Positions 3,633 through 7,503 of a DNA stretch of 21,744 nt are shown here, in pieces. The stretch is from positions 1-21,744 of the IMG/VR virus record IMGVR_UViG_3300023281_000777; one strand, 5' to 3'. The position numbers and the translations under genes were made by a program. Position 1 is the stretch's first letter; every line of letters starts with the position of its first letter. The stretch is from a virus. The notes below the pieces were generated by a model. That model saw only the letters and a list, made by a program, of their open reading frames with translations. It had not been told where the DNA came from and did not search any database.

Positions 3633-5375
3633 ATGCCGAGTGAAGTCCTTGACGTTCTAATAGCTCTCGAAGCAGACAGTGACGCTCTTGCCATTGGTGA
3701 TACGTGGCGTAAGTGGGTTATCTATCGTGATAATAAGATTGAGGAGTGGAAAGAACAACGTAATTATATCTTTGCCACCGATACTCGTACTACCTCAAAT
3801 CAGAAACTTCCGTGGGCCAACTCGACCACTACTCCAAAAATAACTCAGATTCGAGACAACCTACACGCTAACTACTTTGCTGCCATCTTTCCTACAAGCA
3901 AATGGCACAAATGGGAGGGTGATGATCGACAGAGTGACACCCAAAGCAAACGAGAAGTTATTCAGGCGTACGTAGAAACAAAAGCAAAACAGGGTGGATT
4001 TGTAGACACTATGTCTCGTCTTATCCTTGATTGGATCGACACTGGTAATGCCTTTGGAACCGTTGATCCGATTATTGATTTTATAGACGGAGAAGACGGA
4101 GACCTGATTACAAAGTTTGTTGGGCCAAAGCTTCGTCGTATTTCTCCGTATGATATTGTCTTTAATCCCTTGTCGGATAGTTTTGAGAATGCTCCGAAGA
4201 TTGTAAAAGAGCTTGTGTCAGTCGGGGACCTAAAGAAGAAAATTGACCAAGACCCAGCTAATGAATGGATGGCTGGTGCATTTGAGAAGATGCAGAGTGT
4301 GCGAGGCTCAGTTACTTCACAGGATGCAGAACTGGCAAAGGCAGATGGCTTCATAGCTGATGGTTTCTCAAGCTTGATTAACTACTATGAGTCTGGCAGT
4401 GTAGAACTTCTCCATTACTTTGGGGACCTTTACAATCACAACACGGATGAGTTACAGCTTAACCGTATCATAACTATCGCTGATCGTTCCCGTGTCTTAC
4501 GTAATATCCCCAACCCTTCTTGGTTAGGTGCTGCTGCTATTCGACACACAGGATGGAGACAGAGGCCAGATAATCTCTACGGTATGGGTCCTCTTGAGAA
4601 TCTAGTTGGTCTCCAATATCGTATTGACCACCTTGAGAACTTGAAAGCAGATGTCTGGGACAGGATTGCTTATCCTCAGATTGTTATTCAAGGTGATGTT
4701 CAGGAGTTTGGTGACGATCTTGGAGAGCGCATCTATGCAGGAGAAGAGGGCAGAGTAAGCTATCTAGTGCCTGATGCTACTGCCTTGAACGCTGATCTTC
4801 AGATCAAAGACCTTGCAGATAAGATGGAAGAGCTTGCTGGTGCCCCACGAAGTGCAATGGGTATTCGCACACCCGGAGAGAAAACGGCGTTTGAATTTGC
4901 TGGTCTTCAACGTGCAGGTAATCGAATCTTTGAACACAAAGCCTATCACTTTGAAAGAACCTTCCTCGAACCTCTCCTCAATGATATGTTAGAGGTTGGT
5001 AGACGTAACTTGGATGATAGTGATCTTATTCGTCTAGTGGACGACGATACTGGTATAGCAATCTTTAAGAGCATTACACGGGAGGATATCACTGCTAGAG
5101 GAAAGCTACGTCCCGTTGGTTCTCGACACTTTGCAGAACGAGCTGTTCGTCTCCAGAATATCCAGAACGTTGTTCAACTTAAACAGGACCCGACCATTGG
5201 TGTGCATATTAGTGGTAAGGAATTAGCTAGGGTTCTTAGTCTCGAGCTGGATGAACCTGATTTGTTCTCTGATAACGTTGCTATCTTTGAGCAGCAGGAG
5301 ACCCAGCGGTTAGTTGGCGAAGCAGAAGTTCAGATGGAAGAAGAAGAGCAAGTGGCAATTGAGGAAGGAATTTAA
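3633..5375 (+). CDS. Portal (head-tail connector) protein
   Basis: Encodes 580 residues, within the usual podovirus portal range. It is expected to form the dodecameric ring at one capsid vertex through which DNA passes. Recognisable features are a stem-like region WRQRPDNLYGMGPLENLVG (about residues 308-326) followed by a long helix (YRIDHLENLKADVWDR), the segment GAPRSAMGIRTPGEKTAFE (403-421) typical of the clip/stem region of these portals, and a very acidic C-terminus (EMEEEE-like, last 20 residues). It starts 2 nt after terL and ends just before a small basic gene; terminase followed by portal and scaffold is the classical packaging/head order. A GGGAG lies inside the 3' end of terL. Confidence 0.9.
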   Translation: MPSEVLDVLIALEADSDALAIGDTWRKWVIYRDNKIEEWKEQRNYIFATDTRTTSNQKLPWANSTTTPKITQIRDNLHANYFAAIFPTSKWHKWEGDDRQSDTQSKREVIQAYVETKAKQGGFVDTMSRLILDWIDTGNAFGTVDPIIDFIDGEDGDLITKFVGPKLRRISPYDIVFNPLSDSFENAPKIVKELVSVGDLKKKIDQDPANEWMAGAFEKMQSVRGSVTSQDAELAKADGFIADGFSSLINYYESGSVELLHYFGDLYNHNTDELQLNRIITIADRSRVLRNIPNPSWLGAAAIRHTGWRQRPDNLYGMGPLENLVGLQYRIDHLENLKADVWDRIAYPQIVIQGDVQEFGDDLGERIYAGEEGRVSYLVPDATALNADLQIKDLADKMEELAGAPRSAMGIRTPGEKTAFEFAGLQRAGNRIFEHKAYHFERTFLEPLLNDMLEVGRRNLDDSDLIRLVDDDTGIAIFKSITREDITARGKLRPVGSRHFAERAVRLQNIQNVVQLKQDPTIGVHISGKELARVLSLELDEPDLFSDNVAIFEQQETQRLVGEAEVQMEEEEQVAIEEGI

Positions 5376-5376
5376 A

Positions 5377-5643
5377 ATGGGAGAAAATAGACAAGGCCCA
5401 TTCCAAAGGCGAAGTATTGTAGGCGACCCTAGACTAAAAGGCGATCCCAGTGGGGCGTTCACTAGTTCTGCAAAACCCCCTAAGAAAAGAAAAAGGGTAG
5501 GCCCCAAGACATCCCCAAAACCTCGTAGGAAAGGAATTCAAGTCAAACCTTTAGGTGCTCCTAAACGTGGGCCGGTAGCTGGTAGACGAGTTACCACCAA
5601 AAGACTTAAAGTCTTTAAACCCTTTACGGTAGGAGACAGGTAA
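5377..5643 (+). CDS. Small highly basic protein (88 aa)
   Basis: Twenty-six of 88 residues are Lys or Arg, with clusters PPKKRKR, KPRRKG and RRVTTKRLK interspersed with Pro and Gly, so the protein is probably disordered and binds nucleic acid or an acidic protein surface. I do not recognise a family. ATG 5377 is preferred because AGGAAGG lies a few bases upstream; a TTG at 5314 inside the portal gene would add 21 residues. It begins one base after the portal stop and ends one base before the next basic gene. The acidic portal C-terminus next door is a conceivable partner, but that is speculation. Confidence 0.7.
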   Translation: MGENRQGPFQRRSIVGDPRLKGDPSGAFTSSAKPPKKRKRVGPKTSPKPRRKGIQVKPLGAPKRGPVAGRRVTTKRLKVFKPFTVGDR

Positions 5644-5644
5644 A

Positions 5645-5842
5645 ATGGCACTTCTAAAAAAGATTAAAAGGGCAGGGATAGGAGGACTTAGTAATCCTTT
5701 CCGTATTTTGCCAAAGGGTGTAGGCCCAAAGAAACTTGGTAAGGGTGGCCCACTCGGGCGATTGAGTAATAGGGGTGTGGCTATCCAACGAAAACAACTT
5801 TTTCCTAAACCCAAAGGAGCTCGTCCTAAAAGAAGGAGATAA
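5645..5842 (+). CDS. Small highly basic protein (65 aa)
   Basis: Twenty of 65 residues are Lys or Arg, with abundant Gly and Pro and a C-terminal cluster (KPKGARPKRRR). There is no membrane segment and almost no acidic residue, so it should be strongly cationic at any pH. I do not recognise a family. TAGGAGA lies about 9 nt upstream of the ATG, a good ribosome site. It sits between another basic protein and the holin-like gene. Possible roles include binding packaged DNA, RNA or the portal/scaffold; the sequence does not decide between these. Confidence 0.7.
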   Translation: MALLKKIKRAGIGGLSNPFRILPKGVGPKKLGKGGPLGRLSNRGVAIQRKQLFPKPKGARPKRRR

Positions 5843-5847
5843 TAAAG

Positions 5848-6027
5848 ATGGAACAGACAACTGTTGCAAAGGCTATTACGGCTATTATTACAGGGTTTGC
5901 CACTATTGCAGCCACTGTATTTTCGCAGAGTGTTGACTGGCTCACTCCGGAACTTACTGTTACTATCGGCTCGGCTATCACTGCCTTGCTGGTGTGGCTG
6001 GTTCCGAATAAACCTGTCGAAGAGTAA
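5848..6027 (+). CDS. Holin-like small membrane protein
   Basis: Encodes 59 residues with two predicted membrane spans: about residues 8-27 (AITAIITGFATIAATVF) and 36-54 (LTVTIGSAITALLVWLV), separated by a short SVDWLTPEL turn, ending in a short charged tail (NKPVEE). This is the form of small class II phage holins, which accumulate in the inner membrane and trigger lysis. A strong AGAAGGAGAT lies 7 nt upstream of ATG 5848. It is followed 2 nt later by the spanin pair, which supports a lysis role. The endolysin is not adjacent; the likeliest candidate is at 20571. Confidence 0.7.
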   Translation: MEQTTVAKAITAIITGFATIAATVFSQSVDWLTPELTVTIGSAITALLVWLVPNKPVEE

Positions 6028-6029
6028 AA

Positions 6030-6242
6030 ATGTCTAGTTGGGTTATTGCTGTAATTGGCTTGGCTATTGTAACCGGGCTCATACTGGTTGCTCGTAGATG
6101 GGGTAAGCTTTCAGCAGAACGCAAGATACTAAGAAAGAACATTGAAGCCGCCAAAAACCGAAAGGCGATTGACAATGAAACTGATAAACTTGACGACGAT
6201 GGTCTTACTAGTGAGCTTGATCGCTTCGTGCGCAAGTCCTGA
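6030..6242 (+). CDS. Inner-membrane spanin (Rz-like)
   Basis: Encodes 70 residues. An N-terminal membrane anchor (residues 4-21, WVIAVIGLAIVTGLILVA) is followed by a charged helical region rich in Lys, Glu and Asp (residues 25-68) that would lie in the periplasm as a coiled coil. This is the i-spanin layout, although at 70 residues it is short for the family. The decisive support is the overlapping out-of-frame lipoprotein gene starting at 6175, as in Rz/Rz1 pairs. Inner and outer spanins connect the two membranes and fuse them in the last step of lysis of a Gram-negative host. It follows the holin-like gene by 2 nt with only a weak ribosome site. Confidence 0.75.
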   Translation: MSSWVIAVIGLAIVTGLILVARRWGKLSAERKILRKNIEAAKNRKAIDNETDKLDDDGLTSELDRFVRKS

Positions 6243-6390
6243 AGGAGATTTTTGTCTTAGTGCCTCTCCGTTTCTTTTGAATGAAGAGACTGTAGGGTTT
6301 CTTGTCTTGAATGATAGAAGTTTAGCACGTAGCATTATTAGTCACAATGCTTATGGAGAAGAGGTTTGCGGTTGGGAGTTCGATGAATAA
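6175..6390 (+). CDS. Outer-membrane spanin lipoprotein (Rz1-like)
   Basis: Encodes 71 residues. The N-terminus is a lipoprotein signal: MKLINLTTMVLLVSLIAS followed by Cys19, a good lipobox (IAS-C), giving a mature protein of about 53 residues anchored in the outer membrane. The mature part contains DFCLSASPFLL, then SIISHN and EEVCGW; the F-C ... H-N ... C-G-W pattern recurs in small phage lysis lipoproteins I know, and the two Cys residues may form a disulphide. It starts inside the i-spanin gene in another frame and extends 148 nt past it. ATG 6175 is preferred to TTG 6142 because the signal peptide begins there and AAGG lies about 9 nt upstream. Its stop overlaps the next start (TAATG). 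Confidence 0.8.
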   Translation: MKLINLTTMVLLVSLIASCASPEGDFCLSASPFLLNEETVGFLVLNDRSLARSIISHNAYGEEVCGWEFDE

Positions 6391-6530
6391 TGGCGCGTAG
6401 TGACCCAAAAGACCCATTTAATAAAAGGGGATTCAGACAACGCGCTAGGGTTCGTGGTAGGGAACTTCTATCACGACAGAAGAAACGTAAAAAGAATTTT
6501 AGAAAACCTAGTAAGAAAGTTAAAAAATGA
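6390..6530 (+). CDS. Extremely basic mini-protein (46 aa)
   Basis: Encodes 46 residues, 21 of them Lys or Arg. It starts MARSDPKDPFNKRGFRQRAR and ends in a run of KKRKKNFRKPSKKVKK. Start and stop overlap both neighbours (TAATG with the outer spanin, ATGA with the next gene), so translation is probably coupled and the gene is likely genuine despite its size. The composition resembles protamine- or histone-tail-like condensing peptides and some RNA-binding tails. I do not recognise a family. It is the third cationic mini-protein within about 1.2 kb, the other two lying on the other side of the lysis genes. Confidence 0.7.
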   Translation: MARSDPKDPFNKRGFRQRARVRGRELLSRQKKRKKNFRKPSKKVKK

Positions 6531-6760
6531 AAGAGATTTGGTTTAGTGGAGCCAAGAAAGAAGATAGAGATAAGGTAAAACAAGATATTGCTCTGGCACA
6601 TAATGCGTTTAAGCGATTGTCAGAGATATTAGAAAAGAAGTATGTTGTTAACACGTCGTCTACTGAATACGACAAAGCTTCTTGGCCTTTCTATCAAGCC
6701 GATAACAATGGGTACAATCGAGCCTTAACAGAGGTTCTAAATTTAATTAAAGGAGACTGA
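6527..6760 (+). CDS. Conserved small phage protein of unknown function (77 aa)
   Basis: Encodes 77 residues beginning MKEIWFSGAKKEDRDKVKQD and containing YDKASWPFYQADNNGYNRAL near residue 48-67. The S-W-x-x-x-Q-A-D-x-N-G-x-x-R-A-L pattern is one I associate with a recurrent small protein near scaffold/capsid genes of podoviruses, but its function is not known to me. The protein is probably mostly helical with no membrane segment. It is coupled to the preceding basic gene by a 4-nt ATGA overlap and ends 5 nt before the scaffold gene. Confidence 0.7.
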   Translation: MKEIWFSGAKKEDRDKVKQDIALAHNAFKRLSEILEKKYVVNTSSTEYDKASWPFYQADNNGYNRALTEVLNLIKGD

Positions 6761-6765
6761 TAACC

Positions 6766-7503
6766 ATGTCAGCATTTGACACTAATGCTCCAACCGGAGA
6801 CCCCGAGAACTATCTTGATCATCTAGTAGGTGAAGATAAGAAGTTCACTGATACTGAAGCTCTTGCGAGAGGTAAGTACGAAGCTGATAAACATGTTGGT
6901 AATTTAGAGCGGCAGCTTGCTGAACTAAAAGAAGACATGCAGGAAGCTGGGAAAATCGATGAACTTATGGAACTGGTGCGTAACCAACAGCAGCAGAACA
7001 AGGCTATAGACGATCCTCCAAAGGAAGGCCCCGGCGATACCAGCTCTGGCCAATTGACTACAGAGGAGTTGAAAGCCTTAATTGAAACTCACGTTACTGA
7101 GCGTGATAAACAGTCAACCGAAGTTAGAAATTTGACAGAGGTAGACAGGGCTCTTGCAGACAAGTTTGGCGACAACGCTGGGCAAGTTCTCAGTAATAGA
7201 GCAACCGTCGTAGATATGACTGTTGATGAAATGAAAGAATTGGCTTCTAGGAACCCTAAAGCCTTCTACCGCCTAATGGGAATGGATAGTGACAGTCGTA
7301 AAGTTGAATCCGGGAACATGATGGGCGGTGGGCAACGTTCAGAGGGTGAGCAAATTAAGCGTGGTGGTTCCCGTGATTTTGCTTACTATCAGGAGATGCG
7401 TAGAGATAAAAAGACTAAACATCTTTATTACTCTCCAAAGATACAACAACAGATGGCAAATGATGCAGAGGTTATGGGGGCTGCTTTTTATAGCAACTCG
7501 TAA
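6766..7503 (+). CDS. Capsid scaffolding protein
   Basis: Encodes 245 residues, hydrophilic and acidic. The N-terminal motif (about residues 16-42) containing YLDHLVGEDKKFTDTEALAR and GKYEADKHV is typical of scaffolding proteins of marine and other podoviruses, followed by a coiled-coil-like stretch (NLERQLAELKEDMQEAGK, about 45-62) and a Gln-rich linker. The C-terminal 40 residues, with basic segments (YQEMRRDKKTKH), would form the coat-binding end. Scaffold directs capsid protein assembly around the portal and then leaves the prohead. AGGAG at 6751-6755 lies 10 nt before the ATG. Its position directly before the capsid gene supports the call. Confidence 0.85.
   Translation: MSAFDTNAPTGDPENYLDHLVGEDKKFTDTEALARGKYEADKHVGNLERQLAELKEDMQEAGKIDELMELVRNQQQQNKAIDDPPKEGPGDTSSGQLTTEELKALIETHVTERDKQSTEVRNLTEVDRALADKFGDNAGQVLSNRATVVDMTVDEMKELASRNPKAFYRLMGMDSDSRKVESGNMMGGGQRSEGEQIKRGGSRDFAYYQEMRRDKKTKHLYYSPKIQQQMANDAEVMGAAFYSNS

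Follow-up and report, generated by a model that had tools for sequence, protein, structure and literature searches.

In a marine Zobellviridae-like podophage, the junction between the portal gene and the small gene of the phrog_8956 protein looks like a real, selected and overlooked accessory slot of the head module, in which small and strongly cationic proteins are encoded. Its position, the charge of its products, the coding selection on its frames and their close packing with the portal frame were all observed directly. The phage is represented by an entire IMG/VR virus record of 21.7 kb (21,744 nucleotides, hereafter the window), evidently a genome fragment, as named relatives have 38-50 kb. 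The window portal was closest to those of Cobavirinae and other Zobellviridae, the best named matches having 45-57% identity, and the assignment to a Zobellviridae-like podophage is based on portal similarity and head-gene order, which agreed.

Cationic mini-ORFs and their block in the window

Three mini-ORFs lie in the block (Table 1), and the coordinates and K/R counts that a previous sequence-only reading had given for them proved exact. K and R made up 26 of 88 residues in ORF1, 20 of 65 in ORF2 and 21 of 46 in ORF3, with 4, 0 and 3 acidic residues, giving net charges of +22, +20 and +18 and a pI of 12.0 for all three. Among small proteins annotated in two Zobellviridae genomes (78 compared; median K/R fraction 0.126, 95th percentile 0.218), none was as rich in K and R. 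No Pfam or PHROG match was obtained for the three proteins even at E≤1, in agreement with the earlier statement that they lack recognised domains. Disorder was predicted by charge-hydropathy, and the AlphaFold2 model of ORF2 was of low confidence (mean pLDDT 64.8, pTM 0.26). A common origin of ORF1 and ORF2 was not supported (E=0.73).

Table 1. Genes of the portal-side block of the window and adjoining head genes.
Feature	Coordinates	Strand	Match or counterpart
Portal (head-tail adaptor), acidic C-terminus	3633..5375	+	phrog_332, E=1e-78
ORF1, 88-aa cationic mini-protein	5377..5643	+	homologue L004:7742-8044
ORF2, 65-aa cationic mini-protein, zero acidic residues	5645..5842	+	homologue L003:6677-6862
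Holin-like membrane protein, lysis cassette	5848..6027	+	weak PHROG matches, e.g. phrog_2879 holin, E=0.13
i-spanin	6030..6242	+	phrog_1026 Rz-like spanin, E=2.7e-6
o-spanin, overlaps i-spanin gene	6175..6390	+	phrog_1275 Rz-like spanin, E=4.6e-9
ORF3, 46 aa, 46% K/R	6390..6530	+	other cationic ORFs in the slot of L005, L013, L006
phrog_8956 protein, small, helical, conserved; closes the slot	6527..6760	+	phrog_8956, E=2e-16
Scaffold protein, acidic (pI 4.9)	6766..7503	+	phrog_7931, E=9.5e-35

The sequence-only reading had placed the block between portal and scaffold. It does adjoin the portal gene, but its 3' neighbour is the phrog_8956 gene, and the scaffold gene comes next, at a position which agrees with the annotated scaffold genes of GX1, ICBM1 and CW02. 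The AlphaFold2 model of the phrog_8956 protein was helical (mean pLDDT 86.9); a fold search gave no informative PDB match, and its confident matches were only to proteins seemingly of the same family, e.g., from Lentibacter phage ICBM2. Close packing of the genes was also borne out, whereas the tight stop/start overlaps described earlier were found only around ORF3 (o-spanin/ORF3, TAATG; ORF3/phrog_8956, ATGA); ORF1 and ORF2 each start 1 nt past the preceding TAA. Scans for Rfam families, local repeats, promoters and terminators returned nothing relevant inside the block. Elsewhere in the window, neighbouring genes at 359-1102 and 1112-1852 encode proteins of 247 and 246 aa that look like a tandem duplicate, both starting with MPKAP and having many stretches in common.

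The proposal that these are real, coupled genes held up. In dinucleotide-preserving shuffles, an ORF of at least 90% of the length appeared in 0, 0 and 1 of 2000 trials for ORF1, ORF2 and ORF3, respectively. Single-protein IMG/VR scans with ORF1 and ORF2 returned nothing, nor did tblastn searches of named phages with all three; homologues of ORF1 and ORF2 surfaced only via portal synteny. Against its single homologue ORF1 had a pN/pS of 0.38 (0.17 over the N-terminal 28 codons) and ORF2 one of 0.43, rough values because there was one homologue each and synonymous sites were near saturation. Both frames were thus kept, and the two outcomes named beforehand as arguing against the genes, a lack of homologues and a ratio near 1, were not what we found for ORF1 and ORF2. 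For ORF3, comparison with the relatives' loci and named phages gave no sequence homologue, and the case for a real gene is built on composition, the shuffle test, the overlaps with both neighbours and positional counterparts.

These counterparts came from the near relatives. Five IMG/VR contigs had portals 74-84% identical to that of the window, and L013 was added at 77%. The block of L003 contained an ORF2 homologue, the holin and spanins and was without ORF3, and that of L004 an ORF1 homologue, a 126-aa charged protein, the holin, spanins and an 86-aa ORF. In L005 and L013, a different holin-like ORF and spanins were followed by a cationic frame of 59 and 51 aa in the ORF3 position (54 and 51 aa when counted from an inner ATG), while L006 had the same different holin-like ORF, diverged spanin-like ORFs and then two cationic ORFs. 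The portal of L002 was directly followed by the holin, where the contig ends. Because block contents differ among these loci, ORF1, ORF2 and ORF3 are, judging from gene content, gained and lost separately. At least one strongly cationic ORF was nevertheless present in the block of every near relative that was complete there.

Only members of the window's clade had the holin and spanins in the slot, and from this distribution the lysis cassette is best read as an insertion into a pre-existing portal/phrog_8956 slot. The cassette looks incidental to the cationic ORFs, and the slot does not look like a part of the lysis genes; the earlier link between the two was not upheld, as lysis genes were absent from the slot in the majority of relatives that have a cationic ORF in it. 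In cobaviruses, lysis genes were described as preceding the internal virion protein genes (PMC6775973). Homologues of the window's holin-like gene occupied the equivalent place in L002, L003 and L004, and a second holin-like ORF, dissimilar to it, occurred at this position in other members of the one small clade (L005:3175-3366, L006:2022-2213 and L013), likely a lysis-gene swap.

Recurrence and selection at the portal/phrog_8956 junction

Two further alignment scans added about 155 loci, besides named phages; each scan gave the best 80 loci of more than 580 matching, and the contigs were metagenomic and partly redundant. Five junctions were scanned with one ORF finder. An ORF was taken as cationic when K+R was at least 22% and exceeded D+E by at least 12%; these thresholds were set after seeing the window ORFs and the first relatives and were the same at all junctions. 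Among the matches listed, one or more cationic mini-ORFs (17-161 aa) were present at portal/phrog_8956 in 52/168 loci, compared with 4/176 at terminase/portal, 7/161 at phrog_8956/scaffold, 3/155 at scaffold/capsid and 2/96 at capsid/adaptor (Fisher p of 8e-10 or less for each of the four comparisons). On inspection, the seven at phrog_8956/scaffold mostly look like out-of-frame readings overlapping the scaffold start. The terminase/portal cases were convincing and flank the portal gene itself on its other side, in L003, L004, L013 and L015, the last being sister of the window's clade; the mini-ORFs just upstream of the portal there have 25-80 aa, and one is HNH-like. Those at capsid/adaptor were HNH-like proteins of ICP2 and VP41s3 (L007 and L012, before the adaptor gene), and another HNH-like relative of slot fillers was found in CW02 (gp36, L188:6001-6309). 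Counted as distinct peptides, 62/96 were cationic at portal/phrog_8956 vs 2/178 between the capsid and adaptor genes. The sequence-only reading had seen unrelated-looking ORFs with a shared property and not a shared ancestry, and this view was strengthened, since unrelated cationic mini-ORFs recur here far more often than at neighbouring junctions.

Outside the window's clade, the portal gene was followed either by phrog_8956 directly or by at least one cationic mini-ORF and then phrog_8956. Typical products were MPYKKGKVKPYKNTTKKPMKKK (22 aa) and MYGTTKKKPKPKKKPKK (17 aa), and in L127, L131 and L144 several slot genes stood in tandem. About two thirds of the listed relatives had no cationic ORF at the junction, so where the slot is without one the ORF is dispensable or lies elsewhere in the genome. 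In L145-L183, the portal/phrog_8956 gap was 36-45 bp and contained, as read by eye, a near-consensus sigma-70-like promoter (TTGACT...TATAAT or TATACT) in place of a cationic ORF.

A cationic ORF was found in 46/53 distinct gaps, vs 14.2 (sd 2.8) in shuffled gaps, and in 26/53 distinct junctions one ORF spanned the gap from edge to edge. Among 72 slot ORFs, 62 had a Shine-Dalgarno-like 4-mer and 30 started 1 nt after the previous stop. In the largest cluster (28 sequences) dN/dS was 0.17 (13 pairs), with 104/181 differences at third positions (p=4e-11), and in the HNH-like cluster it was 0.10, substitution patterns which indicate that the slot frames are under purifying selection. All-against-all comparison sorted the peptides into about 35 clusters that showed no similarity to one another at E<1e-3, an upper estimate, since remote relationships may go undetected between very short basic peptides. 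Furthermore, presence of a slot ORF changed at least 17 times on the portal tree (149 rows). By these sequence comparisons, charge and position are kept in the slot, and sequence is not. Known families account for some fillers (DUF6321; phrog_4590/6437, HNH-like; phrog_16028), and one was DUF5872-like, just below the Pfam cut-off.

Possible roles of the slot proteins

We propose, tentatively and by analogy, that the slot proteins may be disordered cationic accessories of virion assembly that work at the portal vertex or the DNA end much as T7 gp6.7/gp7.3 do, without being homologous to them. A variable accessory slot beside the portal gene would repeatedly recruit small, disordered and strongly cationic proteins, which would be made late, along with portal and scaffold, and would bind negative surfaces at the unique vertex (the packaged DNA end, the acidic portal or the scaffold) during procapsid assembly, packaging or ejection. 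As the binding would be electrostatic, sequence would be replaceable and charge would not. A broader form of this proposal, on which we place somewhat less weight, is that phages might have a general class of portal-linked cationic micro-proteins, some as short as 17 aa, that annotation has passed over; charge, size and position, not sequence, would be conserved among them, and each would serve as an exchangeable electrostatic component of the portal vertex or DNA end. We found no virion proteomics of any carrier and no binding data in the literature searched, and no description of a portal-adjacent cationic slot in Zobellviridae in a search covering mainly open-access papers.

Several other roles were weighed. 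The peptides could be packaged DNA-binding cargo, protamine- or nuclease-like, which coats the head DNA or is co-ejected and uses the portal operon only for late expression. In fact, fillers of several relatives resemble nucleic-acid-binding modules (phrog_4590/6437; DUF6321, E=8e-30), one phrog_4590/6437 protein weakly matching HNH_3 (E=0.0023, short of the curated threshold), and DUF6321 also occurs among the head genes of pelagiphage HTVC103P and cyanophage P-SCSP1g. A cationic protein of P12053L weakly matched a minor head/DNA pilot PHROG (E=0.0017); this protein, gp37 (L184:17209-17478, 89 aa, phrog_7595), comes from a genome without a slot ORF. However, 17-37 aa is a small size even for a DNA-binding protein, the strict portal-side position would be left unexplained, and we consider this role unlikely. 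Much the same doubt attaches to a moron-like cassette, in which host-directed RNA- or DNA-binding mini-proteins sit where the late operon tolerates an extra gene and their charge reflects generic nucleic-acid binding. The patchy, interchangeable content, the tandem genes and the HNH-like members at other sites in ICP2, VP41s3 and CW02 fit such a cassette, but a tolerant site should accept non-cationic genes equally, which is not what the proportions of cationic peptides at this junction and at capsid-adaptor indicate.

An assembly cofactor that bridges the acidic scaffold and the acidic portal in the procapsid and is lost before maturation seems improbable to us. Both proposed partners are encoded beside the slot (the last 39 aa of the window portal have a pI of 4.1), and the portal C-terminus was slightly more acidic in loci with slot ORFs, the median net charge of its last 40 aa being -8 with and -7 without them. 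However, both groups are acidic, and slot charge did not covary significantly with portal, scaffold, phrog_8956 protein, capsid protein or GC content in phylogenetically independent pairs, which leaves the suggested charge partnership with the acidic portal C-terminus without firm statistical support. Because these tests singled out no partner, DNA-coating and host-directed roles remain candidates. Membrane-active lysis factors that aid holin and spanins, like the disruptin of phage phiKT, are very improbable: the holin and spanins are adjacent and the N-terminal part of ORF2 includes an amphipathic stretch (hydrophobic moment 0.56), but both ORF1 and ORF3 are highly polar, an i-/o-spanin pair is already present in the window, and lysis genes are missing from the slot of most relatives with an ORF there. 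Hardly credible is a purine-rich non-coding leader whose translation would matter solely because it couples the portal to the gene after it; the edge-to-edge stop-start fit and the promoter-like spacer of another clade would suit it, whereas dN/dS far below 1 with a third-position excess, in-frame length changes and the conserved N-terminal motif of ORF1 speak against it.

ORFs this short are often missed by gene callers, and sequence-based families cannot group them; for this reason, a recurrent head-module part of a widespread aquatic phage group may be overlooked. If the peptides are virion parts, they would offer a simple genetic handle on how DNA is held and released at the portal vertex, and an example of function kept via charge and not sequence.

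Comparison with known systems

The order terminase, portal, phrog_8956, scaffold and capsid is common to the window and the head module of Zobellviridae (ICP2, Siovirus/Veravirus, Citrovirus, Paundecimvirus). However, in the named genomes examined the gene in the phrog_8956 position directly follows the portal, without a slot ORF, except in GX1, where the slot has two small ORFs, one with 29% K/R. The disruptin of podophage phiKT is a short cationic lysis peptide, as the window ORFs are short and cationic, and disruptin-type peptides are defined as replacing spanins in a phage without them. In contrast, both i-spanin and o-spanin are present in the window, so such a replacement was rejected, and relatives lacking lysis genes at this site still have the slot. 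DUF6321 (PF19846) and phrog_4590/6437 proteins are likewise small and basic, come from aquatic phages and occupy the slot in some relatives of the window, but ORF1 to ORF3 match neither profile (E≤1). A similar 42-aa lysine-rich peptide is also encoded among the head genes of HTVC103P.

The closest likeness in action would be that to T7 gp6.7 and gp7.3 (88 and 99 aa), two small, ejected virion proteins whose genes adjoin that of the portal (PMC11784390), whereas the window proteins are known from their genes alone. Twelve copies of gp6.7 lie at the portal barrel, and six of gp7.3 at the adaptor/nozzle, where it anchors the DNA end in the tail channel (PMC11784390). The T7 genes are located just upstream of the portal gene and the window ORFs downstream, and the net charge of the T7 proteins (K/R 0.18 and 0.20) is far lower. 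By sequence the window proteins are not members of these families: BLASTP of ORF1 to ORF3 against gp7.3 gave E≥7 or no alignment, and they match no PHROG, while gp6.7 (compared via PHROG only) and gp7.3 match phrog_1391 and phrog_1320, respectively. A small protein encoded at the equivalent place in the genome of Vibrio phage Peru-2 was detected, in low amounts, in the virions of that phage (PMC13320782).
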